From Tridacna crocea (lineage: Eukaryota; Mollusca; Bivalvia; Cardiida; Cardiidae): DNA of 64,000 bases. The notes under the pieces are model-generated. The model saw only the letters and a list, made by a program, of their open reading frames with translations. It made no database searches and was not told the origin of the DNA. Made by a program: the position numbers and the translations under genes. Positions 4,063 through 64,000 of this stretch are shown here, piece by piece. The DNA is taken from contig OX031073.1 of the NCBI GenBank assembly GCA_943736015.1, positions 27,121,210 to 27,185,209 of the forward strand, written 5' to 3'. The number at the start of each line of letters is the position of its first letter. Position 1 is the stretch's first letter.

Positions 4063-4293
4063 TTAACCCTTTACCCCATAAGGCATTTCTATGGTATCTC
4101 TAATTGACCCTAAGTAACAGCAAGGATGAAGCAGTTTCTTATGTGTATATATGACACTTTTTGATAGCATAGAAAAAATTGTGGTAAAAGGTGAAATTGC
4201 TCGTCACGAGCAATTTCACCTTTTGCCACAATGTTTTCCACAGGCTCCTACAAGCAATGCGTAGAAATGAGTATCTGTGGAGTAAAGGGTTAA
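4063..4293. mobile_element. TTAA-flanked MITE (piggyBac-like ends), copy 2
   Basis: 231 bases, TTAACCCTTTACCCCATAAG to GGAGTAAAGGGTTAA. It is the same element as 2289-2517, with the central ctcgtcacgag hairpin. Here the inverted ends match over the first 11 bases after TTAA except one. Confidence 0.8.
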
Positions 4294-9893: not shown

Positions 9894-9900
9894 TTTATTA
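9894..9900 (-). terminator. Possible polyadenylation signal overlapping the stop codon (TAATAAA)
   Basis: On the minus strand the stop reads TAATAAA, so AATAAA begins on the second base of the stop codon. No other AATAAA was seen in the next ~110 bases downstream on that strand. If it is used, the 3' UTR would be only some 10-30 bases long. This is a motif match only; the cleavage site is not visible. Confidence 0.4.
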
Positions 9901-27500: not shown

Positions 27501-30500
27501 TGTCACTTGCAAATGCCTTCATTTAGGAATTCCATTTTCATTTCTTTTATTTTTTTGGTACATAAAGGCTTCAACGAATTGCCTTTTCATACCTAATAAG
27601 ATTATGCAGGGTAGAAACCGTCTTTGCAGTGAATAATATCATTGGACATATCATGCTAACGAATAGTTTTACGTTCGTGCAGCTATATGCTTCACAGTGC
27701 AGAAATACATAGAGGATATTTGTTTTTTTCGGTGAAAGATCGAAATTTATTTCATCGAGTGGACACCATCGGTAATATTTTCACGAGTGGCGCAGCCACG
27801 AGTGAAAATATTACCGATGGTGTTCACGAGATGAAATAAAATTCGATCTTTCACCGAAAAAAACAAATATTCTATTTATTTCATGCTTTTAACCCTTTCT
27901 GGGAGGAGCTTTATCAAAATTCAGTACAGTTCTTTTCCGTTATTCCCCGTGGCGTACCCCTCCCGCATAGCAACGTTACGTCAAGCGCGAGAAATGTAAG
28001 GTATATGACGTCATATTTCCCATCTGGTTGTTAGGCACGCGCAATTTACCTAGGCGACAAGAACGTGAAAATCGGTATTTTCACTGGTGGTACCAGTGTA
28101 AGATCGAAAAATATTTTCACTGCTATTTCTCGATATCCTACCGGAAAGCAGGAAATAAAGGAGTATAGTTTTCTATTACATAAGCTTAGCATCGACAAAT
28201 TCTTACATGGTGCCACAAACGGATTTTCGGTCTTCCGGACATAGCTCGATGAGCTAACCGTTACTTTCTAAGGAAGAAAAGAGTAGTGTGACAACATCAA
28301 TAAAGAACATAAAACAGCCTTACTCTGTACACAATCTCCGGTACTACTGTCTAGATAACGATCAGATGAACATCTGCATGTTGCAGGAGAACCAGAACAT
28401 TCAACATTGCTTCCTCTACATTGGTCCGTTCCGGTGCAGTTCTCCCCAACACATTTCACTGAAATAAAATGATTATTCCTTTCATAATTTTTTCTTATTT
28501 TTCCTGTAACTTCAATTTTTCTTTTGCTTCAAGTAACACTTTAAACGATAGGCAACGAAATTAAAAAAAAGATATCTAGAAAAGCTTAAGAAACTACAAG
28601 ATGGCTACAAGGGTTCAAATAGAAAAATTCGCACTTTTCATTACAGCATGATTAGCATAAAACGCTTTACACATCCGAAGTTCATTAAGGGTTTAAAAGT
28701 TAATAAAAAAACGGTATCTGTTTTTAATTTCAAGCTTAAGACAGAATTCTACTCCTAAATTAACTCATGCAAACAATAACATGTAAAACAATAACATATA
28801 AAAGAACCATTCAATCATTCCTGCTTTTTTAATATCTTTTGATAAGACAAAAACGGACCTAACCTTTACAAGACATGCTTCAATTTGAGCTACATTGAAG
28901 TCTTTTTAATAGAAAAAGGTACGATTAATTTCTGATCTTAACTACTGAGGGTACAGAATATATAGGCACATTAAAGAAACGTCTGATCGAAGTTGTTGAA
29001 AAAAAAGCCTAAGGGTATCTTACATGGCTCGCAGGTTCCGCTGTTTTCATAATAATCCGAGTCACATGCGCAAGTCCCACTGCAAACTGCATTTGGATCT
29101 GAACAAGCGTCTGGCTGTGGACACGTAGCGTTGAGAGCGACCTCTGTCAATGTAACACAAAAGTCACGATTAATCATTTTCCTTTCTTAAACAAACACTT
29201 TTTGTTGAATGCAATGCATCTGGCTTCTACGCCTTACAGTGAGAATATTTAAAAACAAGAATGCTTCCACTACTCTAAGTTATTCTATAAACTGATTTTC
29301 ACATGGAACCCTTGTTCTGTGAGTTTTCTTTATCTCTTTACGATAACTCGCTAGTGTGAGTGAATTACCCTGACATAAAAACACAAATGACATTATTGTT
29401 CACCTAGTCATTTGAAAACGAGAAAAAGAATATCAAAAACGACACACATACTTGCTGAACAGTTTCCACCCGCGGTTGCCCCATTGCTATCGTAAAACCC
29501 TTCTTGGCATTCACACACATTCGTGGTAGAGTCACATACAGAGTCGGAAGGCCCACATTGACCAGGCTCGCAACTAGATCCAAGGTCTTTATCTGCAAAA
29601 ATTAACATAAATGTATCCAGTTCTATTATTCATAGTTTAAGAATGCAGACCTACTCCAACCTTGTCGCTAATATGACGTTTCTCACGTCTGAAATAAGAA
29701 GAACAGTTGCTTTTATCACAGAAAACAGTTTTGCAGATTATCTTCATCGCCACGTGTAAAACAGCGCTTCTCCAAAGCATCCATACTTTGGTCGATTTGA
29801 GTCATCGATAAGCAATGGGCCGTCAAACAACTTCGCCTATATAAGATTGATTTTTGTTCAACTATCAAACCAAGCATTGCTACTGCTGTGTCTCAGCCCG
29901 TGAAAGAAGAATTGAATCGAAGCACGATGACGGTATCATTCAGGCAACCAAATCCAACGAGATTATTTCGAAATTTCAATACAAGTACGCTACTTACTCA
30001 GGACACAGTCTCCGGTTCCAATGTCTAAATAACGATCAGATGGACATCTGCATGTTGAAGGAGAACCAGAACATTCAACATTGCTTCCTCTACATTGGTC
30101 CGTTCCGGTGCAATTCTCCCCAACACATTTCACTGAAAATAGAATTATTTGTATTCCTAAAGTACGAACTTATCCTCAAATTGTGAAAGAGACATTTTAC
30201 ATAAATGGGTCATGTTTGTACTGTATACTTCAATATTCCCCTGCGTTAAAAAATCATGAATAACACGGCTTTCAAACCCTGAAATCTTCTAAAAAATCTG
30301 GAAAGGATTATAAGGAGGCTTCAAGTGTTATTGCTCTGATACATTTAACATCTTTTTTTTCTCCAGTTCCCATAGAAAAGACTTCTCTACTCCTTCATTA
30401 GCAGTATTAAGCAGCCTTCCAGAGATTGAGGTAACAATCTAAACAAGACATGACTTTCATTTCTAAGTGACTTTCTGAATACCTGAAAATGCTGTTTTCA

Positions 30501-33500
30501 TTCGTGTACTGCAATCGATAACGTAGATACGGGTAAATGATAATTCAATTTTCATTCTATCTGTAAAACTGCGATGAAGAGAAAGGTACAGCAACTTGAA
30601 ATCCTAACCACACCCGTTTCAATACTTTTTGGGGTACTGAAAACTTTTATTAGTTTATCAGTCAAAAAGTTCCAATTGATCTTGGTCACTCCTTACAGAA
30701 AATGCAGACTTAGAGCATTATTTAGGAATAGCTTAAGCAAAAATCTCTGTCCATGCAAGAAAAAGAATACACGTAACAGAGGGTATCTTACATGGCTCGC
30801 AGGTTCCGCTGTTTTCATAATAATCCGAGTCACATGCGCAAGTCCCACTGCAAACTGCATTTGGATCTGAACAAGCGTCTGGCTGTGGACACGTAGCGTT
30901 GAGAGCGACCTCTGTCAATGTAACACAAAAGTCACGATTAATCATTTTCCTTTCTTAAACAAACACTTTTTGTTGAATGCAATGCATCTGGCTTCTACGC
31001 CTTACAGTGAGAATATTTAAAAACAAGAATGCTTCCACTACTCTAAGTTATTCTATAAACTGATTTTCACATGGGACCCTTGTTCTGTGAGTTTTCTTTA
31101 TCTCTTTACGATAACTCGCCAGTGTGAGTGAATTACCCTGACATAAAAACACAAATGACATTATTGTTCACCTAGTCATTTGAAAACGAGAAAAAGAATA
31201 TCAAAAACGACACACATACTTGCTGAACAGTTTCCACCCGCGGTTGCCCCATTGCTATCGTAAAACCCTTCTTGGCATTCACACACATTCGTGGTAGAGT
31301 CACATACAGAGTCGGAAGGCCCACATTGACCAGGCTCGCAACTAGATCCAAGGTCTTTATCTGCAAAAATTAACATAAATGTATCCAGTTCTATTATTCA
31401 TAGTTTAAGAATGCAGACCTACTCCAACCTTGTCGCTAATATGACGTTTCTCACGTCTGAAATAAGAAGAACAGTTGCTTTTATCACAGAAAACAGTTTT
31501 GCAGATTATCTTCATCGCCACGTGTAAAACAGCGCTTCTCCAAAGCATCCATACTTTGGTCGATTTGAGTCATCGATAAGCAATGGGCCGTCAAACAACT
31601 TCGCCTATATAAGATTGATTTTTGTTCAACTATCAAACCAAGCATTGCTACTGCTGTGTCTCAGCCCGTGAAAGAAGAACTGAATCGAAGCACGATGACG
31701 GTATCATTCAGGCAACCAAATCCAACGAGATTATTTCGAAATTTCAATACAAGTACGCTACTTACTCAGGACACAGTCTCCGGTTCCAATGTCTAAATAA
31801 CGATCAGATGGACATCTGCATGTTGAAGGAGAACCAGAACATTCAACATTACTTCCTCTACATTGGTCCGTTCCGGTGCAATTCTCCCCAACACATTTCA
31901 CTGAAAATAGAATTATTTGTATTCTTAAAGTACGAACTTATCCTCAAATTGTGAAAGAGACATTTTACATAAATGGGTCATGTTTGTACTGTATACTTCA
32001 ATATTCCCCTGCGTTAAAAAAATCATGAATAACACGGCTTTCAAACCCTGAGATCTAAAAAATCTGGAAAGGATTATAAGGAGGCTTCAAGTGTTATTGC
32101 TCTGATACATTTAACATCTTTCTTTTCTCCAGTTCCCATAGAAAAGACTTCTCTACTCCTTCATTAGCAGTATTAAGCAGCCTTCCAGAGATTGAGGTAA
32201 CAATCTAAACAAGACATGACTTTCATTTCTAAGTGACTTTCTGAATACCTGAAAATGCTGTTTTCATTCGTGTACTGCAATCGATAATGTAGATACGGGT
32301 AAATGATAATTCAATTTTCATTCTATCTGTAAAACTGCGATGAAGAGAAAGGTACAGCAACTTGAAATCCTAACCACACCCGTTTCAATACTTTTTGGGG
32401 TACTGAAAACTTTTATTAGTTTATCAGTCAAAAAGTTCCAATTGATCTTGGTCACTCCTTACAGAAAATGCAGACTTAGAGCATTATTTAGGAATAGCTT
32501 AAGCAAAAATCTCTGTCCATGCAAGAAAAAGAATACACGTAACAGAGGGTATCTTACATGGCTCGCAGGTTCCGCTGTTTTCATAATAATCCGAGTCACA
32601 TGCGCAAGTCCCACTGCAAACTGCATTTGGATCTGAACAAGCGTCTGGCTGTGGACACGTAGCGTTGAGAGCGACCTCTGTCAATGTAACACAAAAGTCA
32701 CGATTAAACATTTTCCTTTCTTAAACAAACACTTTTTGTTGAATGCAATGCATCTGGCTTCTACGCCTTACAGTGAGAATATTTAAAAACAAGAATGCTT
32801 CCACTACTCTAAGTTATTCTATAAACTGATTTTCACATGGGACCCTTGTTCTGTGAGTTTTCTTTATCTCTTTACGATAACTCGCCAGTGTGAGTGAATT
32901 ACCCTGACATAAAAACACAAATGACATTATTGTTCACCTAGTCATTTGAAAACGAGAAAAAGAATATCAAAAACGACACACATACTTGCTGAACAGTTTC
33001 CACCCGCGGTTGCCCCATTGCTATCGTAAAACCCTTCTTGGCATTCACACACATTCGTGGTAGAGTCACATACAGAGTCGGAAGGCCCACATTGACCAGG
33101 CTCGCAACTAGATCCAAGGTCTTTATCTGCAAAAATTAACATAAATGTATCCAGTTCTATTATTCATAGTTTAAGAATGCAGACCTACTCCAACCTTGTC
33201 GCTAATATGACGTTTCTCACGTCTGAAATAAGAAGAACAGTTGCTTTTATCACAGAAAACAGTTTTGCAGATTATCTTCATCGCCACGTGTAAAACAGCG
33301 CTTCTCCAAAGCATCCATACTTTGGTCGATTTGAGTCATCGATAAGCAATGGGCCGTCAAACAACTTCGCCTATATAAGATTGATTTTTGTTCAACTATC
33401 AAACCAAGCATTGCTACTGCTGTGTCTCAGCCCGTGAAAGAAGAACTGAATCGAAGCACGATGACGGTATCATTCAGGCAACCAAATCCAACGAGATTAT

Positions 33501-36500
33501 TTCGAAATTTCAATACAAGTACGCTACTTACTCAGGACACAGTCTCCGGTTCCAATGTCTAAATAACGATCAGATGGACATCTGCATGTTGAAGGAGAAC
33601 CAGAACATTCAACATTGCTTCCTCTACATTGGTCCGTTCCGGTGCAATTCTCCCCAACACATTTCACTGAAAATAGAATTATTTGTATTCCTAAAGTACA
33701 AACTTATCCTCAAATTGTGAAAGAGACATTTTACATAAATGGGTCATGTTTGTACTGTATACTTCAATATTCCCCTGCGTTAAAAAATCATGAATAACAC
33801 GGCTTTCAAACCCTGAGATCTTCTAAAAAATCTGGAAAGGATTATAAGGAGGCTTCAAGTGTTATTGCTCTGATACACTTAACATCTTTCTTTTCTCCAG
33901 TTCCCATAGAAAAGACTTCTCTACTCCTTCATTAGCAGTATTAAGCAGCCTTCCAGAGATTGAGGTAACAATCTAAACAAGACATGACTTTCATTTCTAA
34001 GTGACTTTCTGAATACCTGAAAATGCTGTTTTCATTCGTGTACTGCAATCGATAACGTAGATACGGGTAAATGATAATTCAATTTTCATTCTATCTGTAA
34101 AACTGCGATGAAGAGAAAGGTACAGCAACTTGAAATCCTAACCACACCCGTTTCAATACTTTTTGGGGTACTGAAAACTTTTATTAGTTTATCAGTCAAA
34201 AAGTTCCAATTGATCTTGGTCACTCCTTACAGAAAATGCAGACTTAGAGCATTATTTAGGAATAGCTTAAGCAAAAATCTCTGTCCATGCAAGAAAAAGA
34301 ATACACGTAACAGAGGGTATCTTACATGGCTCGCAGGTTCCGCTGTTTTCATAATAATCCGAGTCACATGCGCAAGTCCCACTGCAAACTGCATTTGGAT
34401 CTGAACAAGCGTCTGGCTGTGGACACGTAGCGTTGAGAGCGACCTCTGTCAATGTAACACAAAAGTCACGATTAATCATTTTCCTTTCTTAAACAAACAC
34501 TTTTTGTTGAATGCAATGCATCTGGCTTCTACGCCTTACAGTGAGAATATTTAAAAACAAGAATGCTTCCACTACTCTAAGTTATTCTATAAACTGATTT
34601 TCACATGGAACCCTTGTTCTGTGAGTTTTCTTTATCTCTTTACGATAACTCGCCAGTGTGAGTGAATTACCCTGACATAAAAACACAAATGACATTATTG
34701 TTCACCTAGTCATTTGAAAACGAGAAAAAGAATATCAAAAACGACACACATACTTGCTGAACAGTTTCCACCCGCGGTTGCCCCATTGCTATCGTAAAAC
34801 CCTTCTTGGCATTCACACACATTCGTGGTAGAGTCACATACAGAGTCGGAAGGCCCACATTGACCAGGCTCGCAACTAGATCCAAGGTCTTTATCTGCAA
34901 AAATTAACATAAATGTATCCAGTTCTATTATTCATAGTTTAAGAATGCAGACCTACTCCAACCTTGTCGCTAATATGACGTTTCTCACGTCTGAAATAAG
35001 AAGAACAGTTGCTTTTATCACAGAAAACAGTTTTGCAGATTATCTTCATCGCCACGTGTAAAACAGCGCTTCTCCAAAGCATCCATACTTTGGTCGATTT
35101 GAGTCATCGATAAGCAATGGGCCGTCAAACAACTTCGCCTATATAAGATTGATTTTTGTTCAACTATCAAACCAAGCATTGCTACTGCTGTGTCTCAGCC
35201 CGTGAAAGAAGAACTGAATCGAAGCACGATGACGGTATCATTCAGGCAACCAAATCCAACGAGATTATTTCGAAATTTCAATACAAGTACGCTACTTACT
35301 CAGGACACAGTCTCCGGTTCCAATGTCTAAATAACGATCAGATGGACATCTGCATGTTGAAGGAGAACCAGAACATTCAACATTGCTTCCTCTACATTGG
35401 TCCGTTCCGGTGCAATTCTCCCCAACACATTTCACTGAAAATAGAATTATTTGTATTCCTAAAGTACGAACTTATCCTCAAATTGTGAAAGAGACATTTT
35501 ACATAAATGGGTCATGTTTGTACTGTATACTTCAATATTCCCCTGCGTTAAAAAATCATGAATAACACGGCTTTCAAACCCTGAGATCTTCTAAAAAATC
35601 TGGAAAGGATTATAAGGAGGCTTCAAGTGTTATTGCTCTGATACATTTAACATCTTTTTTTTCTCCAGTTCCCATAGAAAAGACTTCTCTACTCCTTCAT
35701 TAGCAGTATTAAGCAGCCTTCCAGAGATTGAGGTAACAATCTAAACAAGACATGACTTTCATTTCTAAGTGACTTTCTGAATACCTGAAAATGCTGTTTT
35801 CATTCGTGTACTGCAATCGATAACGTAGATACGGGTAAATGATTATTCAATTTTCATTCTATCTGTAAAACTGCGATGAAGAGAAAGGTACAGCAACTTG
35901 AAATCCTAACCACACCCGTTTCAATACTTTTTGGGGTACTGAAAACTTTTATTAGTTTATCAGTCAAAAAGTTCCAATTGATCTTGGTCACTCCTTACAG
36001 AAAATGCAGACTTAGAGCATTATTTAGGAATAGCTTAAGCAAAAATCTCTGTCCATGCAAGAAAAAGAATACACGTAACAGAGGGTATCTTACATGGCTC
36101 GCAGGTTCCGCTGTTTTCATAATAATCCGAGTCACATGCGCAAGTCCCACTGCAAACTGCATTTGGATCTGAACAAGCGTCTGGCTGTGGACACGTAGCG
36201 TTGAGAGCGACCTCTGTCAATGTAACACAAAAGTCACGATTAATCATTTTCCTTTCTTAAACAAACACTTTTTGTTGAATGCAATGCATCTGGCTTCTAC
36301 GCCTTACAGTGAGAATATTTAAAAACAAGAATGCTTCCACTACTCTAAGTTATTCTATAAACTGATTTTCACATGGGACCCTTGTTCTGTGAGTTTTCTT
36401 TATCTCTTTACGATAACTCGCCAGTGTGAGTGAATTACCCTGACATAAAAACACAAATGACATTATTGTTCACCTAGTCATTTGAAAACGAGAAAAAGAA

Positions 36501-57500: not shown

Positions 57501-60500
57501 AATGCATCTGGCTTCTACGCCTTACAGTGAGAATATTTAAAAACAAGAATGCTTCCACTACTCTAAGTTATTCTATAAACTGATTTTCACATGGAACCCT
57601 TGTTCTGTGAGTTTTCTTTATCTCTTTACGATAACTCGCTAGTGTGAGTGAATTACCCTGACATAAAAACACAAATGACATTATTGTTCACCTAGTCATT
57701 TGAAAACGAGAAAAAGAATATCAAAAACGACACACATACTTGCTGAACAGTTTCCACCCGCGGTTGCCCCATTGCTATCGTAAAACCTTTCTTGGCATTC
57801 ACACACATTCGTGGTAGAGTCACATACAGAGTCGGAAGGCCCACATTGACCAGGCTCGCAACTAGATCCAAGGTCTTTATCTGCAAAAATTAACATAAAT
57901 GTATCCAGTTCTATTATTCATAGTTTAAGAATGCAGACCTACTCCAACCTTGTCGCTAATATGACGTTTCTCACGTCTGAAATAAGAAGAACAGTTGCTT
58001 TTATCACAGAAAACAGTTTTGCAGATTATCTTCATCGCCACGTGTAAAACAGCGCTTCTCCAAAGCATCCATACTTTGGTCGATTTGAGTCATCGATAAG
58101 CAATGGGCCGTCAAACAACTTCACCTGTATAAGATTGATTTTTGTTCTACTATCAAACCAAGCATTGCTACTGCTGTGTCTCAGCCCGTGAAAGAAGAAC
58201 TGAATCGAAGCACGATGACGGTATCATTCAGGCAACCAAATCCAACGAGATTATTTCGAAATTTCAAGACAAGTACGCTACTTACTCAGGACACAGTCTC
58301 CGGTTCCAATGTCTAAATAACGATCAGATGGACATCTGCATGTTGAAGGAGAACCAGAACATTCAACATTGCTTCCTCTACATTGGTCCGTTCCGGTGCA
58401 ATTCTCCCCAACACATTTCACTGAAAATAGAATTATTTGTATTCCTAAAGTACAAACTTATCCTCAAATTGTGAAAGAGACATTTTACATAAATGGGTCA
58501 TGTTTGTACTGTATACTTCAATATTCCCCTGCGTTAAAAAATCATGAATAACACGGCTTTCAAACCCTGAGATCTTCTAAAAAATCTGGAAAGGATTATA
58601 AGGAGGCTTCAAGTGTTATTGCTCTGATACACTTAACATCTTTCTTTTCTCCAGTTCCCATAGAAAAGACTTCTCTACTCCTTCATTAGCAGTATTAAGC
58701 AGCCTTCCAGAGATTGAGGTAACAATCTAAACAAGACATGACTTTCATTTCTAAGTGACTTTCTGAATACCTGAAAATGCTGTTTTTATTCGTGTACTGC
58801 AATCGATAACGTAGATACGGGTAAATGATTATTCAATTTTCATTCTATCTGTAAAACTGCGATGAAGAGAAAGGTACAGCAACTTGAAATCCTAACCACA
58901 CCCGTTTCAATACTTTTTGGGGTACTGAAAACTTTTATTAGTTTATCAGTCAAAAAGTTCCAATTGATCTTGGTCACTCCTTACAGAAAATGCAGACTTA
59001 GAGCATTATTTAGGAATAGCTTAAGCAAAAATCTCTGTCCATGCAAGAAAAAGAATACACGTAACAGAGGGTATCTTACATGGCTCGCAGGTTCCGCTGT
59101 TTTCATAATAATCCGAGTCACATGCGCAAGTCCCACTGCAAACTGCATTTGGATCTGAACAAGCGTCTGGCTGTGGACACGTAGCGTTGAGAGCGACCTC
59201 TGTCAATGTAACACAAAAGTCACGATTAATCATTTTCCTTTCTTAAACAAACACTTTTTGTTGAATGCAATGCATCTGGCTTCTACGCCTTACAGTGAGA
59301 ATATTTAAAAACAAGAATGCTTCCACTACTCTAAGTTATTCTATAAACTGATTTTCACATGGAACCCTTGTTCTGTGAGTTTTCTTTATCTCTTTACGAT
59401 AACTCGCCAGTGTGAGTGAATTACCCTGACATAAAAACACAAATGACATTATTGTTCACCTAGTCATTTGAAAACGAGAAAAAGAATATCAAAAACGACA
59501 CACATACTTGCTGAACAGTTTCCACCCGCGGTTGCCCCATTGCTATCGTAAAACCCTTCTTGGCATTCACACACATTCGTGGTAGAGTCACATACAGAGT
59601 CGGAAGGCCCACATTGACCAGGCTCGCAACTAGATCCAAGGTCTTTATCTGCAAAAATTAACATAAATGTATCCAGTTCTATTATTCATAGTTTAAGAAT
59701 GCAGACCTACTCCAACCTTGTCGCTAATATGACGTTTCTCACGTCTGAAATAAGAAGAACAGTTGCTTTTATCACAGAAAACAGTTTTGCAGATTATCTT
59801 CATCGCCACGTGTAAAACAGCGCTTCTCCAAAGCATCCATACTTTGGTCGATTTGAGTCATCGATAAGCAATGGGCCGTCAAACAACTTCGCCTGTATAA
59901 GATTGATTTTTGTTCAACTATCAAACCAAGCATTGCTACTGCTGTGTCTCAGCCCGTGAAAGAAGAACTGAATCGAAGCACGATGACGGTATCATTCAGG
60001 CAACCAAATCCAACGAGATTATTTCGAAATTTCAATACAAGTACGCTACTTACTCAGGACACAGTCTCCGGTTCCAATGTCTAAATAACGATCAGATGGA
60101 CATCTGCATGTTGAAGGAGAACCAGAACATTCAACATTGCTTCCTCTACATTGGTCCGTTCCGGTGCAATTCTCCCCAACACATTTCACTGAAAATAGAA
60201 TTATTTGTATTCCTAAAGTACAAACTTATCCTCAAATTGTGAAAGAGACATTTTACATAAATGGGTCATGTTTGTACTGTATACTTCAATATTCCCCTGC
60301 GTTAAAAAATCATGAATAACACGGCTTTCAAACCCTGAGATCTTCTAAAAAATCTGGAAAGGATTATAAGGAGGCTTCAAGTGTTATTGCTCTGATACAC
60401 TTAACATCTTTCTTTTCTCCAGTTCCCATAGAAAAGACTTCTCTACTCCTTCATTAGCAGTATTAAGCAGCCTTCCAGAGATTGAGGTAACAATCTAAAC

Positions 60501-63500
60501 AAGACATGACTTTCATTTCTAAGTGACTTTCTGAATACCTGAAAATGCTGTTTTCATTCGTGTACTGCAATCGATAACGTAGATACGGGTAAATGATAAT
60601 TCAATTTTCATTCTATCTGTAAAACTGCGATGAAGAGAAAGGTACAGCAACTTGAAATCCTAACCACACCCGTTTCAATACTTTTTGGGGTACTGAAAAC
60701 TTTTATTAGTTTATCAGTCAAAAAGTTCCAATTGATCTTGGTCACTCCTTACAGAAAATGCAGACTTAGAGCATTATTTAGGAATAGCTTAAGCAAAAAT
60801 CTCTGTCCATGCAAGAAAAAGAATACACGTAACAGAGGGTATCTTACATGGCTCGCAGGTTCCGCTGTTTTCATAATAATCCGAGTCACATGCGCAAGTC
60901 CCACTGCAAACTGCATTTGGATCTGAACAAGCGTCTGGCTGTGGACACGTAGCGTTGAGAGCGACCTCTGTCAATGTAACACAAAAGTCACGATTAATCA
61001 TTTTCCTTTCTTAAACAAACACTTTTTGTTGAATGCAATGCATCTGGCTTCTACGCCTTACAGTGAGAATATTTAAAAACAAGAATGCTTCCACTACTCT
61101 AAGTTATTCTATAAACTGATTTTCACATGGAACCCTTGTTCTGTGAGTTTTCTTTATCTCTTTACGATAACTCGCCAGTGTGAGTGAATTACCCTGACAT
61201 AAAAACACAAATGACATTATTGTTCACCTAGTCATTTGAAAACGAGAAAAAGAATATCAAAAACGATACACATACTTGCTGAACAGTTTCCACCCGCGGT
61301 TGCCCCATTGCTATCGTAAAACCCTTCTTGGCATTCACACACATTCGTGGTAGAGTCACATACAGAGTCGGAAGGCCCACATTGACCAGGCTCGCAACTA
61401 GATCCAAGGTCTTTATCTGCAAAAATTAACATAAATGTATCCAGTTCTATTATTCATAGTTTAAGAATGCAGACCTACTCCAACCTTGTCGCTAATATGA
61501 CGTTTCTCACGTCTGAAATAAGAAGAACAGTTGCTTTTATCACAGAAAACAGTTTTGCAGATTATCTTCATCGCCACGTGTAAAACAGCGCTTCTCCAAA
61601 GCATCCATACTTTGGTCGATTTGAGTCATCGATAAGCAATGGGCCGTCAAACAACTTCGCCTATATAAGATTGATTTTTGTTCAACTATCAAACCAAGCA
61701 TTGCTACTGCTGTGTCTCAGCCCGTGAAAGAAGAACTGAATCGAAGCACGATGACGGTATCATTCAGGCAACCAAATCCAACGAGATTATTTCGAAATTT
61801 CAATACAAGTACGCTACTTACTCAGGACACAGTCTCCGGTTCCAATGTCTAAATAACGATCAGATGGACATCTGCATGTTGAAGGAGAACCAGAACATTC
61901 AACATTGCTTCCTCTACATTGGTCCGTTCCGGTGCAATTCTCCCCAACACATTTCACTGAAAATAGAATTATTTGTATTCCTAAAGTACAAACTTATCCT
62001 CAAATTGTGAAAGAGACATTTTACATAAATGGGTCATGTTTGTACTGTATACTTCAATATTCCCCTGCGTTAAAAAATCATGAATAACACGGCTTTCAAA
62101 CCCTGAGATCTTCTAAAAAATCTGGAAAGGATTATAAGGAGGCTTCAAGTGTTATTGCTCTGATACACTTAACATCTTTCTTTTCTCCAGTTCCCATAGA
62201 AAAGACTTCTCTACTCCTTCATTAGCAGTATTAAGCAGCCTTCCAGAGATTGAGGTAACAATCTAAACAAGACATGACTTTCATTTCTAAGTGACTTTCT
62301 GAATACCTGAAAATGCTGTTTTCATTCGTGTACTGCAATCGATAACGTAGATACGGGTAAATGATAATTCAATTTTCATTCTATCTGTAAAACTGCGATG
62401 AAGAGAAAGGTACAGCAACTTGAAATCCTAACCACACCCGTTTCAATACTTTTTGGGGTACTGAAAACTTTTATTAGTTTATCAGTCAAAAAGTTCCAAT
62501 TGATCTTGGTCACTCCTTACAGAAAATGCAGACTTAGAGCATTATTTAGGAATAGCTTAAGCAAAAATCTCTGTCCATGCAAGAAAAAGAATACACGTAA
62601 CAGAGGGTATCTTACATGGCTCGCAGGTTCCGCTGTTTTCATAATAATCCGAGTCACATGCGCAAGTCCCACTGCAAACTGCATTTGGATCTGAACAAGC
62701 GTCTGGCTGTGGACACGTAGCGTTGAGAGCGACCTCTGTCAATGTAACACAAAAGTCACGATTAATCATTTTCCTTTCTTAAACAAACACTTTTTGTTGA
62801 ATGCAATGCATCTGGCTTCTACGCCTTACAGTGAGAATATTTAAAAACAAGAATGCTTCCACTACTCTAAGTTATTCTATAAACTGATTTTCACATGGAA
62901 CCCTTGTTCTGTGAGTTTTCTTTATCTCTTTACGATAACTCGCCAGTGTGAGTGAATTACCCTGACATAAAAACACAAATGACATTATTGTTCACCTAGT
63001 CATTTGAAAACGAGAAAAAGAATATCAAAAACGACACACATACTTGCTGAACAGTTTCCACCCGCGGTTGCCCCATTGCTATCGTAAAATCCTTCTTGGC
63101 ATTCACACACATTCGTGGTAGAGTCACATACAGAGTCGGAAGGCCCACATTGACCAGGCTCGCAACTAGATCCAAGGTCTTTATCTGCAAAAATTAACAT
63201 AAATGTATCCAGTTCTATTATTCATAGTTTAAGAATGCAGACCTACTCCAACCTTGTCGCTAATATGACGTTTCTCACGTCTGAAATAAGAAGAACAGTT
63301 GCTTTTATCACAGAAAACAGTTTTGCAGATTATCTTCATCGCCACGTGTAAAACAGCGCTTCTCCAAAGCATCCATACTTTGGTCGATTTGAGTCATCGA
63401 TAAGCAATGGGCCGTCAAACAACTTCGCCTGTATAAGATTGATTTTTGTTCAACTATCAAACCAAGCATTGCTACTGCTGTGTCTCAGCCCGTGAAAGAA

Positions 63501-63724
63501 GAACTGAATCGAAGCACGATGACGGTATCATTCAGGCAACCAAATCCAACGAGATTATTTCGAAATTTCAATACAAGTACGCTACTTACTCAGGACACAG
63601 TCTCCGGTTCCAATGTCTAAATAACGATCAGATGGACATCTGCATGTTGAAGGAGAACCAGAACATTCAACATTGCTTCCTCTACATTGGTCCGTTCCGG
63701 TGCAATTCTCCCCAACACATTTCA
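9898..63724 (-). CDS. Giant EGF/EB-module protein with C-terminal C-type lectin domain; 3' part, 66 exons, 5' end outside window
   Basis: Exons were found by reading the minus strand for cysteine-rich open segments bounded by AG and GT. In transcription order: 20 cassettes of exons C-B-A (coordinates under each unit), then C0 28324-28458, Z 25976-26101 and lectin exons 18275-18354, 16678-16798, 12400-12474 and 9898-10070, ending in TAA. Every cassette exon starts and ends in phase 1 and every junction gives a sense codon (A-C Leu, C-B Asn, B-A Lys, C0-Z Lys, Z-lectin Ala). This yields about 2,875 residues: 62 small disulphide modules followed by one lectin domain. Modules of this type are extracellular. 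No membrane segment follows the lectin domain, so the protein is secreted or anchored by a part outside the window. The signal peptide, promoter and first exons are not visible. It could be an adhesive, mucus or immune-recognition lectin; nothing in the sequence decides this. The exon model is firm; the name and function are unknown. Confidence 0.85.
10071..12399 (-). other. Intron between lectin exons 3 and 4
   Basis: Canonical GT/AG intron of 2,329 bases. It holds a long inverted-repeat element (10124-11057) and a small palindrome at about 11625-11690 with the GGAGAAAATGCT arm found in MITE-like repeats elsewhere in the window. Nothing else was recognised between 11060 and 12399. Confidence 0.7.
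10124..11057. mobile_element. Long foldback (inverted-repeat) element, ~0.93 kb, non-autonomous
   Basis: The ends are inverted copies of agtagtatagg, and homology continues inward through almost the whole element. Matching blocks on opposite strands include aataacttaattttg, ttttcagacgacc, agattttcccac, tttaacgcca and ctacgaccctcaacc. The arms are roughly 80% alike by eye and meet near 10590-10660. There is no coding capacity. This fits a foldback/MITE-type DNA element; no clear target duplication was found, so superfamily is open. Confidence 0.7.
12400..12474 (-). CDS. Lectin exon 3 (core strands of the C-type lectin domain)
   Basis: The acceptor is CTTCAG after a (TATC)n microsatellite and the donor is GTAAGT; phase 1 to phase 1, 75 bases. 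With the flanking exons it reads G-Y-W-N-D-L, then N-E-V-W-R-N-T-G-D-P-L-L, leading into S-D-W of the last exon. Y-W-N-D-L sits where lectins usually have WIGL, and the V-W...G-D-P stretch sits where they have the 'W.W.dG' strand. Without this exon the fold would lose its core. The short length explains why no long ORF marks it. Confidence 0.82.
12479..12516. repeat. (GATA)n microsatellite directly upstream of lectin exon 3
   Basis: About nine uninterrupted GATA units, followed by degenerate GACG/GACA units up to ~12533. On the gene strand this is (TATC)n ending at the CTTCAG acceptor, so it serves as the pyrimidine-rich tract of that splice site. Confidence 0.95.
12847..12997. repeat. Near-perfect 151-base palindrome
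   Basis: The arm aactatcagaatgaag...cagagaccattttaagagcag...cttgctTACTT is repeated in inverse on the other side of a four-base centre (gatg) near 12918. Only a few mismatches interrupt ~73-base arms. The transcript would form a long hairpin. It lies in an intron of the lectin gene and looks like a small foldback element. Confidence 0.85.
13210..13540. repeat. Diverged copy of the interspersed repeat at 27716-28100
   Basis: It shares, in the same order, ttcggtg.aagatcgaaatt, a catcggta..attttcacga block followed by ggcgc.gc, and gagaaatgta.g.atat...atatttcc. In this copy the hairpin at the left end is lost. Confidence 0.6.
13736..16480. repeat. Cluster of nested foldback elements carrying TGACGTCA octamers
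   Basis: Two modules recur in both orientations. One is a palindromic core: tatcgtggtttatcgttcaa on one side, a centre close to ccacgaggGCGATAgcccg, and the inverted arm ending ttgaacgataaaccac. Cores lie at about 13968-14125, 14370-14520, 14540-14680, 15330-15500, 15500-16110 (interrupted) and 16325-16465. The other is a ~230-base arm running from 'ttctaacatggc' through 'gtgacgtcattctatatggagtgacgtca' to 'cctttgatgaagagt'. Seven perfect TGACGTCA octamers occur: 13826, 14221, 14241, 14800, 15195, 15215 and 16223. There is no ORF of note. It is best read as repeated insertion or duplication of a foldback MITE. Confidence 0.8.
15552..16014 (-). mobile_element. 463-bp non-autonomous retroelement or 5'-truncated LINE end, with 14-bp target duplication
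   Basis: It is flanked by a perfect direct duplication, tcacgagagcgata, at 15538-15551 and 16015-16028. Removing the insert restores the palindromic core of the host foldback element. On the minus strand the 3' end is a (CATT)n tail preceded by a motif at 15577-15617 that matches 40 of 41 bases of the 3' end of the large retroelement (18928-18968). The body has a ~65-base tandem repeat, 'gcataaagggcat.atcgagttacagggcaatccctata', twice, plus a degenerate third copy. There is no ORF. Either it is a SINE-like parasite of the LINE or a truncated relative. Confidence 0.8.
16678..16798 (-). CDS. Lectin exon 2 (helix 1 to helix 2 of the C-type lectin domain)
   Basis: The acceptor is ATCATTTCAG and the donor GTAAGA; phase 0 to phase 1, 121 bases. 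It codes T-F-C-D-T-F, then S-T-L-V-Q-V-D-T-V-P-E-L-N-F-L-K-D-F-M. This is the conserved 'A...C....a.Lv.v.s..E..fl..f' segment: a helix with the first fold cysteine, the L-V strand, then the E..FL helix. Phase 0 at its start matches the phase 0 end of lectin exon 1. Confidence 0.88.
16931..16994. repeat. Hairpin repeat, diverged copy of 2571-2635
   Basis: Inverted arms of the form acgtagatcaaggtcatactgcac and its complement surround a short centre. The same palindrome occurs nearly perfectly at 2571-2635, and a half copy lies at about 1874-1910. Confidence 0.75.
17526..17568. repeat. Short palindrome with GCGCAGGCTGACAT arms
   Basis: The 20-base arm gactcatgtcagcctgcgca and its inverse complement flank a three-base centre, with one mismatch. 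The GCGCAGGCT core is also the centre of the neighbouring foldback element. Confidence 0.8.
17611..17871. mobile_element. 261-bp foldback MITE with 21-bp perfect terminal inverted repeats
   Basis: The termini are ggagtgcaacacgcgaaaag and its exact complement, flanked by a possible 4-base direct repeat ATTT. Inside each arm lies 'gtgtcgtc..ggattagcctg', and a second, perfect palindrome (ggattagcctgcgc centre) occupies 17775-17835. It has no coding capacity and is a typical non-autonomous DNA element. Confidence 0.85.
18275..18354 (-). CDS. Lectin exon 1 (N-terminal hairpin of the C-type lectin domain)
   Basis: The acceptor is ATGTTTCAG and the donor GTAAGT; phase 1 to phase 0, 80 bases. It codes C-P-A-N-W-E-E-F-G-S-S-C-Y-L-F, the hallmark opening 'CP..W..f..sCY.f' of long-form C-type lectin domains, whose two cysteines pair with each other. 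It ends F-Y-A-A-A-V at the start of helix 1. The first base of its first codon comes from exon Z and gives Ala. Confidence 0.9.
18508..18596. repeat. Half copy of the palindromic foldback core of 13736-16480
   Basis: Reads cttctttctatcgtgg.ctatcgttcaataaaccac, then gtgagttatgag..gcaataaataatccacgagggcgat, and then stops. The second arm is missing. Confidence 0.8.
19015..22694 (-). pseudogene. Retrotransposon ORF2: endonuclease-RT-RNase H polyprotein, frameshifted, RT active site lost
   Basis: The first part (22694-22197, 165 aa) opens with the AP-endonuclease motif Q-W-N-C-R-G-L, followed by C-L-Q-E-T and G-D-F-N-G-H. It ends prematurely at a one-base shift near 22197-22206. The second part (22206-19015, 1,063 aa) starts inside the endonuclease and keeps its S-D-H motif. 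Next come the RT with Y-V-D-D (residues 505-508), the RNase H residues D805, E838, D862, H904 and D914, and a C-terminal C..C...H....C motif. RT motif A reads F-F-Y-L-E-K-A-Y-D: the first catalytic Asp is Tyr at residue 417 (codon 20956-20958). The shift and this substitution are independent disabling changes, although the rest of the long frame is intact, so decay is recent. Confidence 0.9.
22732..23907 (-). CDS. Retrotransposon ORF1: nucleic-acid-binding protein with three zinc knuckles
   Basis: 391 residues, intact. The middle holds three Cys/His knuckles in a row: C-F-N-C-Q-K-F-G-H-H..C, C-D-R-C-G...H....C and C-V-N-C-G-K-D-H....C. This is the gag-like arrangement of ORF1 proteins in RNase-H-bearing LINEs, which coat the element RNA. 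The C-terminal third is low-complexity Ser/Lys/Asn-rich and very basic. The first Met (MASQNKR) follows the 5' UTR, and ORF2 starts 37 bases past the stop in another frame. Confidence 0.88.
   Translation of the reverse strand: MASQNKRPRPNNENETSYVNSTKFLVIKSEESKPITSLSPFIIEKQIESLIGTPKSVKKLKNELLLIETSRASQTESLLKIKKFYNLKVSVSEHNSLNKSRGIVKDRVLKGETEEKIVEYLAPQGVVACKRFKIKKDNVQVETNTLLLTFNTTTLPQSIRIFYRTVPVEQFIPNPLRCFNCQKFGHHEDNCKLTDAVICDRCGESKHTSSICQRAFKCVNCGKDHSARSTDCEVWKREKEIMRIKRVRKISYFEAKKQYETAFEPRYSKIVQSATAKPLTRTCGTQYDPVDFEGGAKSSSKSTSPSVKPPQTSETGSKTNQTKNSSRPRSASRSNSCPTSPNKSQKNKPDKKEKDKQQSNRQKKGSQDPIKLANKYENLEAMELEIDSSVK
23908..25079 (-). promoter_or_regulatory. 5' UTR / internal promoter region of the retrotransposon
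   Basis: 1.17 kb between ORF1 and the target duplication with no coding signal. The element's first bases on its strand are GGGCCCCCGCCACTCGGGGCC, a GC-rich self-complementary start. LINEs of this type carry their promoter in the 5' UTR; no individual element was identified here. Confidence 0.55.
25733..25930 (+). repeat. MITE-like copy of the GGAGAAAATGCTGG palindrome family
   Basis: Starts ttaatccttttccaaacaatcc, has a decayed hairpin (ggttaccagcc...ttctacc) and continues with ttagattttgagtta...tttgacggctgcaaat. This is the same order as copies at 3560-3735 and 4310-4540. Confidence 0.65.
25976..26101 (-). CDS. Module Z exon: last EGF/EB-like module before the lectin domain
   Basis: The acceptor is a T-rich tract ending TTTAAAG and the donor is GTATGT; phase 1 to phase 1, 126 bases. 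It codes L-A-I-N-E-T-C-E-R-G-Q-C, then a six-cysteine module with N-V-C-E-C-T-T-G-F, ending C-V-P. Spacing resembles array module B, but the residues differ throughout, so it is an old, non-homogenised module. N-E-T and N-N-S are possible N-glycosylation sites. Confidence 0.85.
27125..27258 (-). mobile_element. tRNA-derived SINE
   Basis: On the minus strand the head at 27258-27192 reads GGGGGTCCTGTGTGGCTCAG, continuing TGGTAAAGTG (A-box-like), then GATCCAGGCTTGAGCC (B-box-like). Folded, it resembles a tRNA. The body holds the hairpin gtgccttgcccaagggcac. A decayed relative lies near 5385-5500. Confidence 0.8.
27300..27412 (-). repeat. Short MITE end ending in agtaaagggttaa
   Basis: Contains aaaatgtggaaaagagag, then taaaagcctttttataat, and ends gattgtttagtaaagggttaa. 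This is the inverse of the ttaaccctttacc start seen in the MITE-like family. The hairpin core is mostly gone. Confidence 0.5.
27716..28100. repeat. Interspersed repeat with a near-perfect 155-base hairpin
   Basis: The hairpin 27716-27871 has ~70-base arms (atatttgtttttttcggtga...) around the centre gtggcgcagccac. The following stretch contains a TGACGTCA octamer at 28006 and a ttacctaggcgac end. A diverged copy without the hairpin is at 13210-13540. Confidence 0.8.
28324..28458 (-). CDS. Module C0 exon: single diverged copy of array exon C
   Basis: Phase 1 to phase 1, 135 bases, the same length as every array exon C. It differs from C1 at 10 positions by eye, most at the 3' end, giving P-A-T-C-R-C-S-S-D and S-S-T-G-D-C-V-Q. 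It keeps the seven-cysteine pattern. Both flanking introns are unalignable with the array introns, so this exon marks the edge of the homogenised array. Confidence 0.87.
28459..29023 (-). other. Intron between array exon A1 and C0
   Basis: 565-base GT/AG intron with sequence of its own. Homology to the other A-to-C introns (659 bases in unit 1) ends about ten bases past the A1 donor, so the array boundary is near 29014. No repeat recognised. Confidence 0.75.
29024..30791 (-). repeat. Array unit 1 (exons C1, B1, A1)
   Basis: Exons: C 29998-30132, B 29452-29592, A 29024-29143. In every complete unit the introns are about 405 (C-B), 308 (B-A) and 659 (A to next C) bases. Exon A codes V-A-L-N-A-T-C...G-T-C-A-C...C-E-P (six Cys). 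Exon B codes L-G-S-S-C-E-P-G-Q-C...C-E-C-Q-E-G-F...N-C-S-A (six Cys). Exon C codes K-C-V-G-E-N-C-T...C-R-C-P-S-D...C-V-L (seven Cys). The A-to-C intron is of type I (tacgaac and catttaac). Confidence 0.9.
30792..32557 (-). repeat. Array unit 2 (exons C2, B2, A2)
   Basis: Exons: C 31766-31900, B 31220-31360, A 30792-30911. 1,766 bases: one extra A in an A-run and three bases missing after gagatct in the A-to-C intron. Exon C has a silent AGC to AGT change shared only with unit 5. Type I intron. Confidence 0.9.
32558..34325 (-). repeat. Array unit 3 (exons C3, B3, A3)
   Basis: Exons: C 33532-33666, B 32986-33126, A 32558-32677. It carries type II intron markers (tacaaac, cacttaac) between type I neighbours, and a T-to-A change upstream of exon A (gattaaacat) shared with units 6 and 8. 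Confidence 0.9.
34326..36093 (-). repeat. Array unit 4 (exons C4, B4, A4)
   Basis: Exons: C 35300-35434, B 34754-34894, A 34326-34445. Type I intron, with the uninterrupted T-run (catctttttttt) seen also in unit 1. No amino-acid change. Confidence 0.9.
36094..37862 (-). repeat. Array unit 5 (exons C5, B5, A5)
   Basis: Exons: C 37068-37202, B 36522-36662, A 36094-36213. 1,769 bases (one extra A). It shares the silent exon C change with unit 2 and has type I introns, suggesting the 2-3 and 5-6 pairs are related blocks. Confidence 0.9.
37863..39630 (-). repeat. Array unit 6 (exons C6, B6, A6)
   Basis: Exons: C 38837-38971, B 38291-38431, A 37863-37982. Type II intron, A at position +9 of the B donor intron, gattaaacat before exon A, and ctgtcaaac in the C-B intron. 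All four marks recur in unit 8. Confidence 0.9.
39631..41399 (-). repeat. Array unit 7 (exons C7, B7, A7)
   Basis: Exons: C 40605-40739, B 40059-40199, A 39631-39750. 1,769 bases, type I intron, the last type I unit seen. It keeps the ctgtcaaac mark of its two neighbours. Confidence 0.9.
41400..43167 (-). repeat. Array unit 8 (exons C8, B8, A8)
   Basis: Exons: C 42374-42508, B 41828-41968, A 41400-41519. It is a marker-for-marker match to unit 6, including an accagttgc change in the C-B intron. From here rightwards every unit has the type II intron. Confidence 0.9.
43168..44935 (-). repeat. Array unit 9 (exons C9, B9, A9)
   Basis: Exons: C 44142-44276, B 43596-43736, A 43168-43287. Type II intron, G at B donor +9. 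No amino-acid change. Confidence 0.9.
44936..46703 (-). repeat. Array unit 10 (exons C10, B10, A10)
   Basis: Exons: C 45910-46044, B 45364-45504, A 44936-45055. Type II. Its A-to-C intron has ttattagtc in place of ttatcagtc, as in units 6, 8 and 13, plus a private gaagac change. Confidence 0.9.
46704..48471 (-). repeat. Array unit 11 (exons C11, B11, A11)
   Basis: Exons: C 47678-47812, B 47132-47272, A 46704-46823. Type II, A at B donor +9. Confidence 0.9.
48472..50239 (-). repeat. Array unit 12 (exons C12, B12, A12); conserved Gly to Trp in module B
   Basis: Exons: C 49446-49580, B 48900-49040, A 48472-48591. A private change at 48948 turns GGG into TGG, so C-Q-E-G-F becomes C-Q-E-W-F. This Gly is the conserved turn residue of EGF-type modules. 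Confidence 0.9.
50240..52007 (-). repeat. Array unit 13 (exons C13, B13, A13)
   Basis: Exons: C 51214-51348, B 50668-50808, A 50240-50359. Type II, A at B donor +9, and the ttattagtc mark. Confidence 0.9.
52008..53775 (-). repeat. Array unit 14 (exons C14, B14, A14)
   Basis: Exons: C 52982-53116, B 52436-52576, A 52008-52127. Type II, A at B donor +9. No amino-acid change. Confidence 0.9.
53776..55543 (-). repeat. Array unit 15 (exons C15, B15, A15); conserved Gly to Arg in module B
   Basis: Exons: C 54750-54884, B 54204-54344, A 53776-53895. A change at 54252 gives C-Q-E-R-F. It shares with unit 17 this change, gttctactatc and cttcacctgtataag. The mark ttcaagaca is shared with units 16 and 17. 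Confidence 0.9.
55544..57311 (-). repeat. Array unit 16 (exons C16, B16, A16); structural Cys lost in module B
   Basis: Exons: C 56518-56652, B 55972-56112, A 55544-55663. A change at 56056 turns TGT into CGT, so S-V-C-D-S becomes S-V-R-D-S and the module is left with five cysteines. Everything else matches its neighbours. Confidence 0.9.
57312..59079 (-). repeat. Array unit 17 (exons C17, B17, A17); conserved Gly to Arg in module B
   Basis: Exons: C 58286-58420, B 57740-57880, A 57312-57431. It carries the same Gly to Arg change (57788) and linked intron marks as unit 15, so the two are recent duplicates two units apart. Confidence 0.9.
59080..60847 (-). repeat. Array unit 18 (exons C18, B18, A18)
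   Basis: Exons: C 60054-60188, B 59508-59648, A 59080-59199. Type II, G at B donor +9, gcctgtataag in the C-B intron (shared with unit 20). Confidence 0.9.
60848..62615 (-). repeat. Array unit 19 (exons C19, B19, A19)
   Basis: Exons: C 61822-61956, B 61276-61416, A 60848-60967. Type II, A at B donor +9, gcctatataag in the C-B intron: the alternate form to units 18 and 20. Confidence 0.9.
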
Positions 63725-64000
63725 CTGAAAATAGAATTATTTGTATTCCTAAAGTACAAACTTATCCTCAAATTGTGAAAGAGACATTTTACATAAATGG
63801 GTCATGTTTGTACTGTATACTTCAATATTCCCCTGCGTTAAAAAAATCATGAATAACACGGCTTTCAAACCCTGAGATCTTCTAAAAAATCTGGAAAGGA
63901 TTATAAGGAGGCTTCAAGTGTTATTGCTCTGATACACTTAACATCTTTCTTTTCTCCAGTTCCCATAGAAAAGACTTCTCTACTCCTTCATTAGCAGTAT
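62616..64000 (-). repeat. Array unit 20 (exons C20, B20, A20), cut by the window edge
   Basis: Exons: C 63590-63724, B 63044-63184, A 62616-62735. One silent change in exon B (GGG to GGA near 63090). The intron upstream of C20 is cut at 64000 with no sign of the array ending, so more units or the gene's 5' part lie to the right. Confidence 0.88.

Follow-up and report, generated by a model that had tools for sequence, protein, structure and literature searches.

Among described systems, the closest by architecture to the locus analysed here is the KIV-2 array of LPA, a human gene that ends in a protease domain. Passages of PMC11201333 report that each LPA kringle is encoded by two short exons, with an intron of mostly 4 kb inside the domain and one of 1.2 kb separating the domains, and that the kringles flanking the array have exon sequence in common with it. 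The nearest mollusc case by architecture is the abalone egg-coat protein VERL, whose array size, according to part of PMC2704960, differed between two individuals that were blotted; moreover, bivalve C-type lectin domain-containing proteins (CTLDcps) are expanded and show bivalve-specific architectures, as stated in the main text of PMC10140915. Here we describe a window of 64,000 nucleotides (the whole stretch of DNA that was analysed) from the bivalve Tridacna crocea (assembly GCA_943736015.1, contig OX031073.1, positions 27,121,210 to 27,185,209 of the forward strand, numbered below from the first letter of the window), in which an array of near-identical three-exon units is probably the middle of one minus-strand gene for a giant stalk of EB modules with a C-type lectin-like end.

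A tandem array of three-exon coding units

As assembled, the array consists of 20 units of 1766-1769 bp each, arranged head to tail from 29013 to the end of the window (64000) and belonging to a minus-strand gene. Its features are the following.

Tandem array: 29013..64000, minus strand; 19 complete units and unit 20, which the end of the window truncates; unit of about 1768 bp
Unit 1: 29013..30780, minus strand; exons C 29998-30132, B 29452-29592, A 29024-29143
Unit 2: 30781..32546, minus strand; exons C 31766-31900, B 31220-31360, A 30792-30911
Unit 3: 32547..34314, minus strand; exons C 33532-33666, B 32986-33126, A 32558-32677
Unit 4: 34315..36082, minus strand; exons C 35300-35434, B 34754-34894, A 34326-34445
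Unit 5: 36083..37851, minus strand; exons C 37068-37202, B 36522-36662, A 36094-36213
Unit 6: 37852..39619, minus strand; exons C 38837-38971, B 38291-38431, A 37863-37982; identical to unit 8
Unit 7: 39620..41388, minus strand; exons C 40605-40739, B 40059-40199, A 39631-39750
Unit 8: 41389..43156, minus strand; exons C 42374-42508, B 41828-41968, A 41400-41519; identical to unit 6
Unit 9: 43157..44924, minus strand; exons C 44142-44276, B 43596-43736, A 43168-43287
Unit 10: 44925..46692, minus strand; exons C 45910-46044, B 45364-45504, A 44936-45055
Unit 11: 46693..48460, minus strand; exons C 47678-47812, B 47132-47272, A 46704-46823; identical to units 14 and 19
Unit 12: 48461..50228, minus strand; exons C 49446-49580, B 48900-49040, A 48472-48591; Trp in place of Gly in exon B
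Unit 13: 50229..51996, minus strand; exons C 51214-51348, B 50668-50808, A 50240-50359
Unit 14: 51997..53764, minus strand; exons C 52982-53116, B 52436-52576, A 52008-52127; identical to units 11 and 19
Unit 15: 53765..55532, minus strand; exons C 54750-54884, B 54204-54344, A 53776-53895; Arg in place of Gly in exon B
Unit 16: 55533..57300, minus strand; exons C 56518-56652, B 55972-56112, A 55544-55663; a conserved EB cysteine of exon B replaced by Arg
Unit 17: 57301..59068, minus strand; exons C 58286-58420, B 57740-57880, A 57312-57431; Arg in place of Gly in exon B
Unit 18: 59069..60836, minus strand; exons C 60054-60188, B 59508-59648, A 59080-59199
Unit 19: 60837..62604, minus strand; exons C 61822-61956, B 61276-61416, A 60848-60967; identical to units 11 and 14
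Unit 20 (intron truncated at the end of the window): 62605..64000, minus strand; exons C 63590-63724, B 63044-63184, A 62616-62735

Three motifs taken from separate parts of the unit, and a shorter one nested in the third, served as anchors; each occurs 20 times in the window with the same spacings, which are 1766, 1768 or 1769 bp in all 19 intervals. Units 1-19 are complete, and unit 20 (1396 bp) is missing some 370 bp of intron sequence, though its three exons are all present. When unit 2 was compared by BLAST with the window, 20 matches were obtained from 29013 on (itself and the 19 others, at 98.98-99.77% identity), together with one further match of 157 bp at 28319-28474 (91%). The unit alignment has 1769 columns, 31 of them variable, including 27 gap-free substitutions in units 1-19, and the mean pairwise diversity among units is 0.34%. 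The G+C content is even over the array (0.379-0.389 in 2-kb steps from 30001). Homology stops at 29013, 11-12 bp beyond the end of exon A, where flanks of 20-200 bp are only 25-33% identical; no unit-like intron sequence was found elsewhere in the window, nor did any Rfam family match within it at gathering scores.

In gene order each unit comprises exon C (135 nt), an intron of 405 bp, exon B (141 nt), an intron of 308 bp and exon A (120 nt), followed by an intron of 659 bp leading to exon C of the next unit (intron lengths measured at units 1 and 2). The exons add up to 396 nt, or 132 amino acids, in 20/20 units; all 60 array exons are preceded by AG and followed by GT, with junctions in phase 1, and no stop interrupts the 2640 codons (2640 amino acids from the 20 units). 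An earlier note on this DNA had proposed twenty near-identical tandem units from 29014 on, each a three-exon cassette adding 132 amino acids, in an array running past the window. The copy number, the spacing and the cassette were all borne out, as was the open end, unit 20 being cut at 64000; of the proposed extent only the start moves, by one base. We add to this the strand and the part of the gene that lies 3' of the array, the earlier note having overlooked that the array forms the stalk in a predicted gene whose 3' end is C-type lectin-like.

One unit corresponds to three EB modules (PF01683). Two joined units matched Pfam EB in six stretches, with an E-value of 7.5e-21 and 74.4 bits against a cut-off of 24.3. 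Five cysteine columns are invariant across the EB exon types C, D, B, A and E (D and E are described below), and the modules of exons C, B and A carry 7, 6 and 6 cysteines, respectively (19 per unit), compared with the eight of the EB module as described by Pfam. A search of PDB sequences with the 132-aa unit gave no match at E <= 1. The AlphaFold model of exon C was confident (mean predicted local distance difference test score, pLDDT, 91.6), but in fold comparisons small disulfide-rich and EGF-like folds matched it only weakly.

The predicted gene beyond the array

From the array toward lower coordinates the frame stays open through six further exons and reaches a stop, with GT-AG at every border and matching phases throughout. 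These exons are as follows.

Exon D: 28324..28458, minus strand; older copy of exon C, differing from that of unit 1 at 10/135 nt, with homology ending near the exon edges
Exon E: 25976..26101, minus strand; single diverged EB module, in frame
Exon L1: 18275..18354, minus strand; predicted C-type lectin-like domain, GT-AG, phase match
Exon L2: 16678..16798, minus strand; predicted C-type lectin-like domain, GT-AG, phase match
Exon L3: 12400..12474, minus strand; predicted C-type lectin-like domain, GT-AG, phase match
Exon L4: 9898..10064, minus strand; predicted C-type lectin-like domain, ending in TAA at 9898

A scan for the cysteine pattern on both strands of 1-29030 found exons D and E alone, and the stretch from D through E to the lectin part scored 25.0 bits against Pfam EB (cut-off 24.3), the best stretch being at exon E. 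Eight of the 10 differences between exon D and exon C of unit 1 fall in the last 60 nt (Fisher p 0.023, with the split picked post hoc; p 0.006 by permutation over splits). The surroundings of exon D match the array introns for a few bases at most, and the introns following exon A, toward D and toward C, have only their first 12 bp in common at E < 0.1; as a simple account, a whole decayed unit at exon D was therefore rejected. The pattern suggests that exon pieces may have been exchanged between exon D and the array.

As for the lectin part, exons L1-L4 were first spotted by eye after a tblastn piece at 18317-18355 (E 8.0), and the joined domain was tested afterwards. Taken alone, the 147-aa product of L1-L4 matched Pfam Lectin_C (PF00059) with 22.8 bits against a cut-off of 22.6 (E 1.6e-4), and it matched 84 distinct PDB sequences at E <= 1, led by a lectin specific for N-acetylglucosamine (3.8e-6). 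Of these 84 we considered 60, most of them named C-type lectins or lectin-like receptors; the remaining ones (for example type II antifreeze proteins and the snake proteins botrocetin and convulxin) presumably share the C-type lectin fold. In C-type lectins the Ca2+/sugar site consists of QPD or EPN, plus WND, and QPD is associated with galactose-type binding. A QPD motif is present here (WRNNQPDD), and ADINC stands near the place expected for WND. NCBIfam gave no match.

The introns of this part of the gene hold further elements. A retroelement without long terminal repeats lies at 19015-23907 between exons E and L1, on the same (minus) strand as the gene, with separate, overlapping frames for a reverse transcriptase with RNase H (19015-22206) and an endonuclease (22197-22694), and an open reading frame at 22732-23907 that has no Pfam match. 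When the three minus-strand frames of 1-29029 were searched with Pfam at E <= 0.1, this retroelement was all that was found, the short exons D, E and L1-L4 being missed. Between exons D and E, a near-perfect palindrome occupies 27713-27873 (two 79-nt arms, 91% complementary, 3 nt between them). Many related inverted repeats (arms of 44-187 nt) occur at 13823-18591, mostly in the introns between L1, L2 and L3, and are among 25 of the 34 pairs recorded for 1-29000; the one at 17610-17872 (121-nt arms, 83% complementary, 21 nt apart) resembles a miniature element. Finally, two 69-nt stretches, 2396-2464 and 4170-4238, are 96% alike in inverted comparison and carry a palindrome.

Predicted product and strength of the gene model

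The product encoded in the window would have 2874 aa and about 294 kDa, with at least 62 EB modules (three from each of the 20 units, plus exons D and E) followed by the C-type lectin-like domain and the stop. Per unit there are 19 cysteines and three N-glycosylation sequons, and the isoelectric point is calculated at about 4.05; over the 20 units this gives 379 cysteines and 60 sequons. Since 19 is an odd number, at least one cysteine per unit may stay free or pair across units or between molecules. The protein may be a secreted stalk of giant size, acidic, rich in disulfides and probably glycosylated, which would keep a lectin head off its anchor or tie it into the extracellular matrix or mucus, and its role would likely be that of a long lectin-tipped stalk in mucus, in the matrix or at the surface.

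We give a probability of about 0.7 to the reading of the array as the middle of one such gene. Several observations weigh against it. The gene model was read from one genomic sequence, and the N-terminus and the 5' edge of the array lie beyond the window, so that secretion is something we infer. Lectin_C passed its cut-off by 0.2 bits only and was not listed by Pfam at E <= 1 when D and E were attached, for which reason we consider the lectin part a divergent member of the family; as L1-L4 had been chosen by eye before the test, the exon chain is a prediction; and the acceptor of exon E (AAAG) is atypical. Moreover, within the array a depletion of variants in exons, as expected from purifying selection, was not significant (Fisher p 0.49), and 3/5 distinct exon changes alter the protein, one of them with loss of a conserved cysteine.

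All array exons being multiples of three nucleotides in phase 1, the gain or loss of units would keep the frame, and therefore protein length can drift in steps of 132 aa. It could well differ between individuals, as in human LPA. More tentatively, and less likely than not, the reach of the lectin might be a heritable, length-variable trait, in which at least 60 near-identical disulfide modules form a stalk that grows and shrinks, the odd cysteine of each unit allows cross-links, and recombination at exon edges keeps passing pieces of exons between the array and the modules that flank it.

Variation among units and evolution of the array

Variable sites amount to 4/396 in exons versus 23/1373 in introns, and nucleotide diversity (pi) to 0.0017 versus 0.0039; the claim of the earlier note that introns are conserved as tightly as exons is, within the significance test given above, roughly right. 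The distinct exon changes comprise two silent ones and three replacements (of Gly by Trp in unit 12 and by Arg in units 15 and 17, and of Cys by Arg in unit 16). That neither stops nor exonic indels occur fits constraint and would also fit youth. One Gly codon of exon B (29498-29500 in unit 1) varies in units 12, 15, 17 and 20, to Trp, to Arg or silently, and is the sole codon of the array with more than one kind of change.

Among units 1-19, 17/27 substitution columns are biallelic and common to at least two units, and four-gamete conflicts were found in 34/136 pairs of these 17 informative sites, with a minimum number of recombination events (Rmin) of 5. Differences between units rise weakly with distance (Mantel r 0.30, p 0.004). 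Seven lags were tested, with uncorrected p values: mean differences were below those of random order at lags 2 and 3 (4.47, p 0.0012, and 4.56, p 0.003, respectively), borderline at lag 5 (5.07, p 0.049) and not low at lag 1 (5.72, p 0.24). The 19 complete units represent 16 distinct haplotypes (6 = 8; 11 = 14 = 19), the longest exact block at a whole-unit offset spans 1.88 units at lag 2, and substitutions comprise 22 transitions and 6 transversions.

Amplification in one very recent burst, without exchange between units thereafter, which would concern how the array evolves and leave the gene model as it is, could account for a mean divergence of only 0.34%, for the sharp left edge of the array and for the lack of unit-like intron sequence anywhere else in the window. 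Such a burst, however, predicts mostly private variants without conflicts, the opposite of the 17 shared biallelic sites and 34 conflicting pairs, and we regard it as unlikely. The mosaic of variants, the four-gamete conflicts and the peaks of similarity at lags 2-3 are why repeated unequal exchange and/or conversion fits better, although recent amplification and continued homogenisation can both hold. What keeps the units alike would be unequal crossing-over that recurs, often with a shift of two or three units, and/or gene conversion, with crossovers or conversion falling inside units and introns being homogenised along with exons. Thus, where the earlier note left the choice between recent amplification and continual homogenisation, the homogenised coding array stands and the single recent burst fits poorly.

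Less probable still is an assembly artefact, in which the assembler would have made twenty or more units by looping a small number of real ones. The very high identity and the identical units would be expected from it, but not the 16 haplotypes, nor the lack of any exact whole-unit-offset block reaching two units; a loop would not readily produce the mosaic of unit variants either, and the excess of transitions (22:6) is taken as a normal mutation spectrum and not as sequencing error.

A non-coding satellite, or a decayed exon array no longer expressed as one protein, would agree with the non-significant depletion of exon variants and with the cysteine lost in unit 16. It is difficult to reconcile with 2640 codons free of stops, 396 exon bases in each unit and intact splice dinucleotides in 60/60 exons, in a frame that runs on into recognisable lectin-domain exons with their own stop, and we consider it quite improbable.

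The least probable account, a cluster of small EB genes, one per unit, or of mutually exclusive exon cassettes serving diversity, can draw on Ostrea edulis, where EB 'genes' are reported as expanded in tandem (31 and 11 copies, in passages of PMC9679249), and on one AATAAA per unit, about 140 nt past the end of exon A (seen in the sequence of unit 1, at 30651 on the minus strand, 141 nt past exon A of unit 2), but all array exons are of internal type, phase 1 on both sides and reading from unit to unit, near-identical cassettes would gain almost no diversity, and the hexamer is not rare in AT-rich DNA nor unexpected from base composition. Within the single giant gene, the AATAAA in the intron after exon A could allow intronic polyadenylation.

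Comparison with known systems

EB relatives by sequence were found in P0001 from Mercenaria mercenaria (with FN3), P0002 from Mya arenaria (with Ig), P0004 from Mytilus edulis (with FN3) and P0003 (1700 aa), the 132-aa unit being about 23-39% identical to the matched stretches (E <= 0.001). Like the clam array, these proteins have runs of EB modules; the modules within each of them, however, are diverged (median pairwise identity 0.32-0.46, maximum 0.62), whereas the clam units are near-identical, and what accompanies them in three of the four is FN3 or Ig domains instead of a lectin. The lectin part matched none of the four better than E 0.4.

The homologue searches require shared five-residue words and limit length. 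No homologue at E <= 0.001 was found among 403 candidates with a 366-aa construct; at least two were found at E <= 0.01 among the best 7992 scored (those sharing most words) with a 762-aa construct, and two among 2728 candidates with residues 1181-1554 of a 1554-aa construct. Because of these two features of the search, and as records of the clam's own genome may have been omitted, the absence of closer relatives is weak evidence. With the same possible exclusion of own-genome records, three matches to phage records at E 0.4 were taken as chance, and no match was found among IMG/VR contigs.

In the literature pairing EB modules with C-type lectins, bivalves or molluscs, of which most subscription papers fell outside the scope, no account of such a gene was found. 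The terms 'EB domain' and 'EB module' occur 0 times in the part of the Mercenaria genome paper covered (PMC8905726), and 'gene conversion' 0 times in that of PMC6314250. The clam gene resembles bivalve CTLDcps in coupling a C-type lectin domain to other domains; it differs from those described in the main text of PMC10140915, where 'EB domain' and 'EGF' occur 0 times.

By architecture, the locus is best compared with LPA KIV-2, which, in the portions of PMC11201333 and PMC11462820 considered, is likewise an intragenic array of multi-exon, disulfide-rich modules repeated with their introns. As in coding variable number tandem repeats (VNTRs) of that type, near-identical multi-exon units were found here in one open reading frame, and the LPA kringles flanking the array, as described in part of PMC11201333, parallel clam exon D. 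The clam module is an EB module where LPA has a kringle, three exons and three modules are packed into each 1.77 kb unit, and a predicted C-type lectin-like cap takes the place of the protease domain. The likeness to VERL is drawn from architecture, and the clam differs from it in that its modules each lie between introns, which are homogenised too. By the precedent of both LPA KIV-2 and VERL, variation of copy number between individuals is plausible.

Judged from its sequence, the array thus appears to be of a kind already known, that of LPA KIV-2: an intron-containing, VNTR-like coding array, here as the stalk of a predicted giant C-type lectin. To the coding VNTRs in which introns are repeated along with exons, it would add a lectin-capped case from an invertebrate, and it offers a clean natural system of at least 60 near-identical symmetric exons in which unequal exchange, conversion and splicing fidelity can be measured. 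Moreover, it raises the question whether the tandem expansions of EB genes in oyster might in part be exons of single giant genes.

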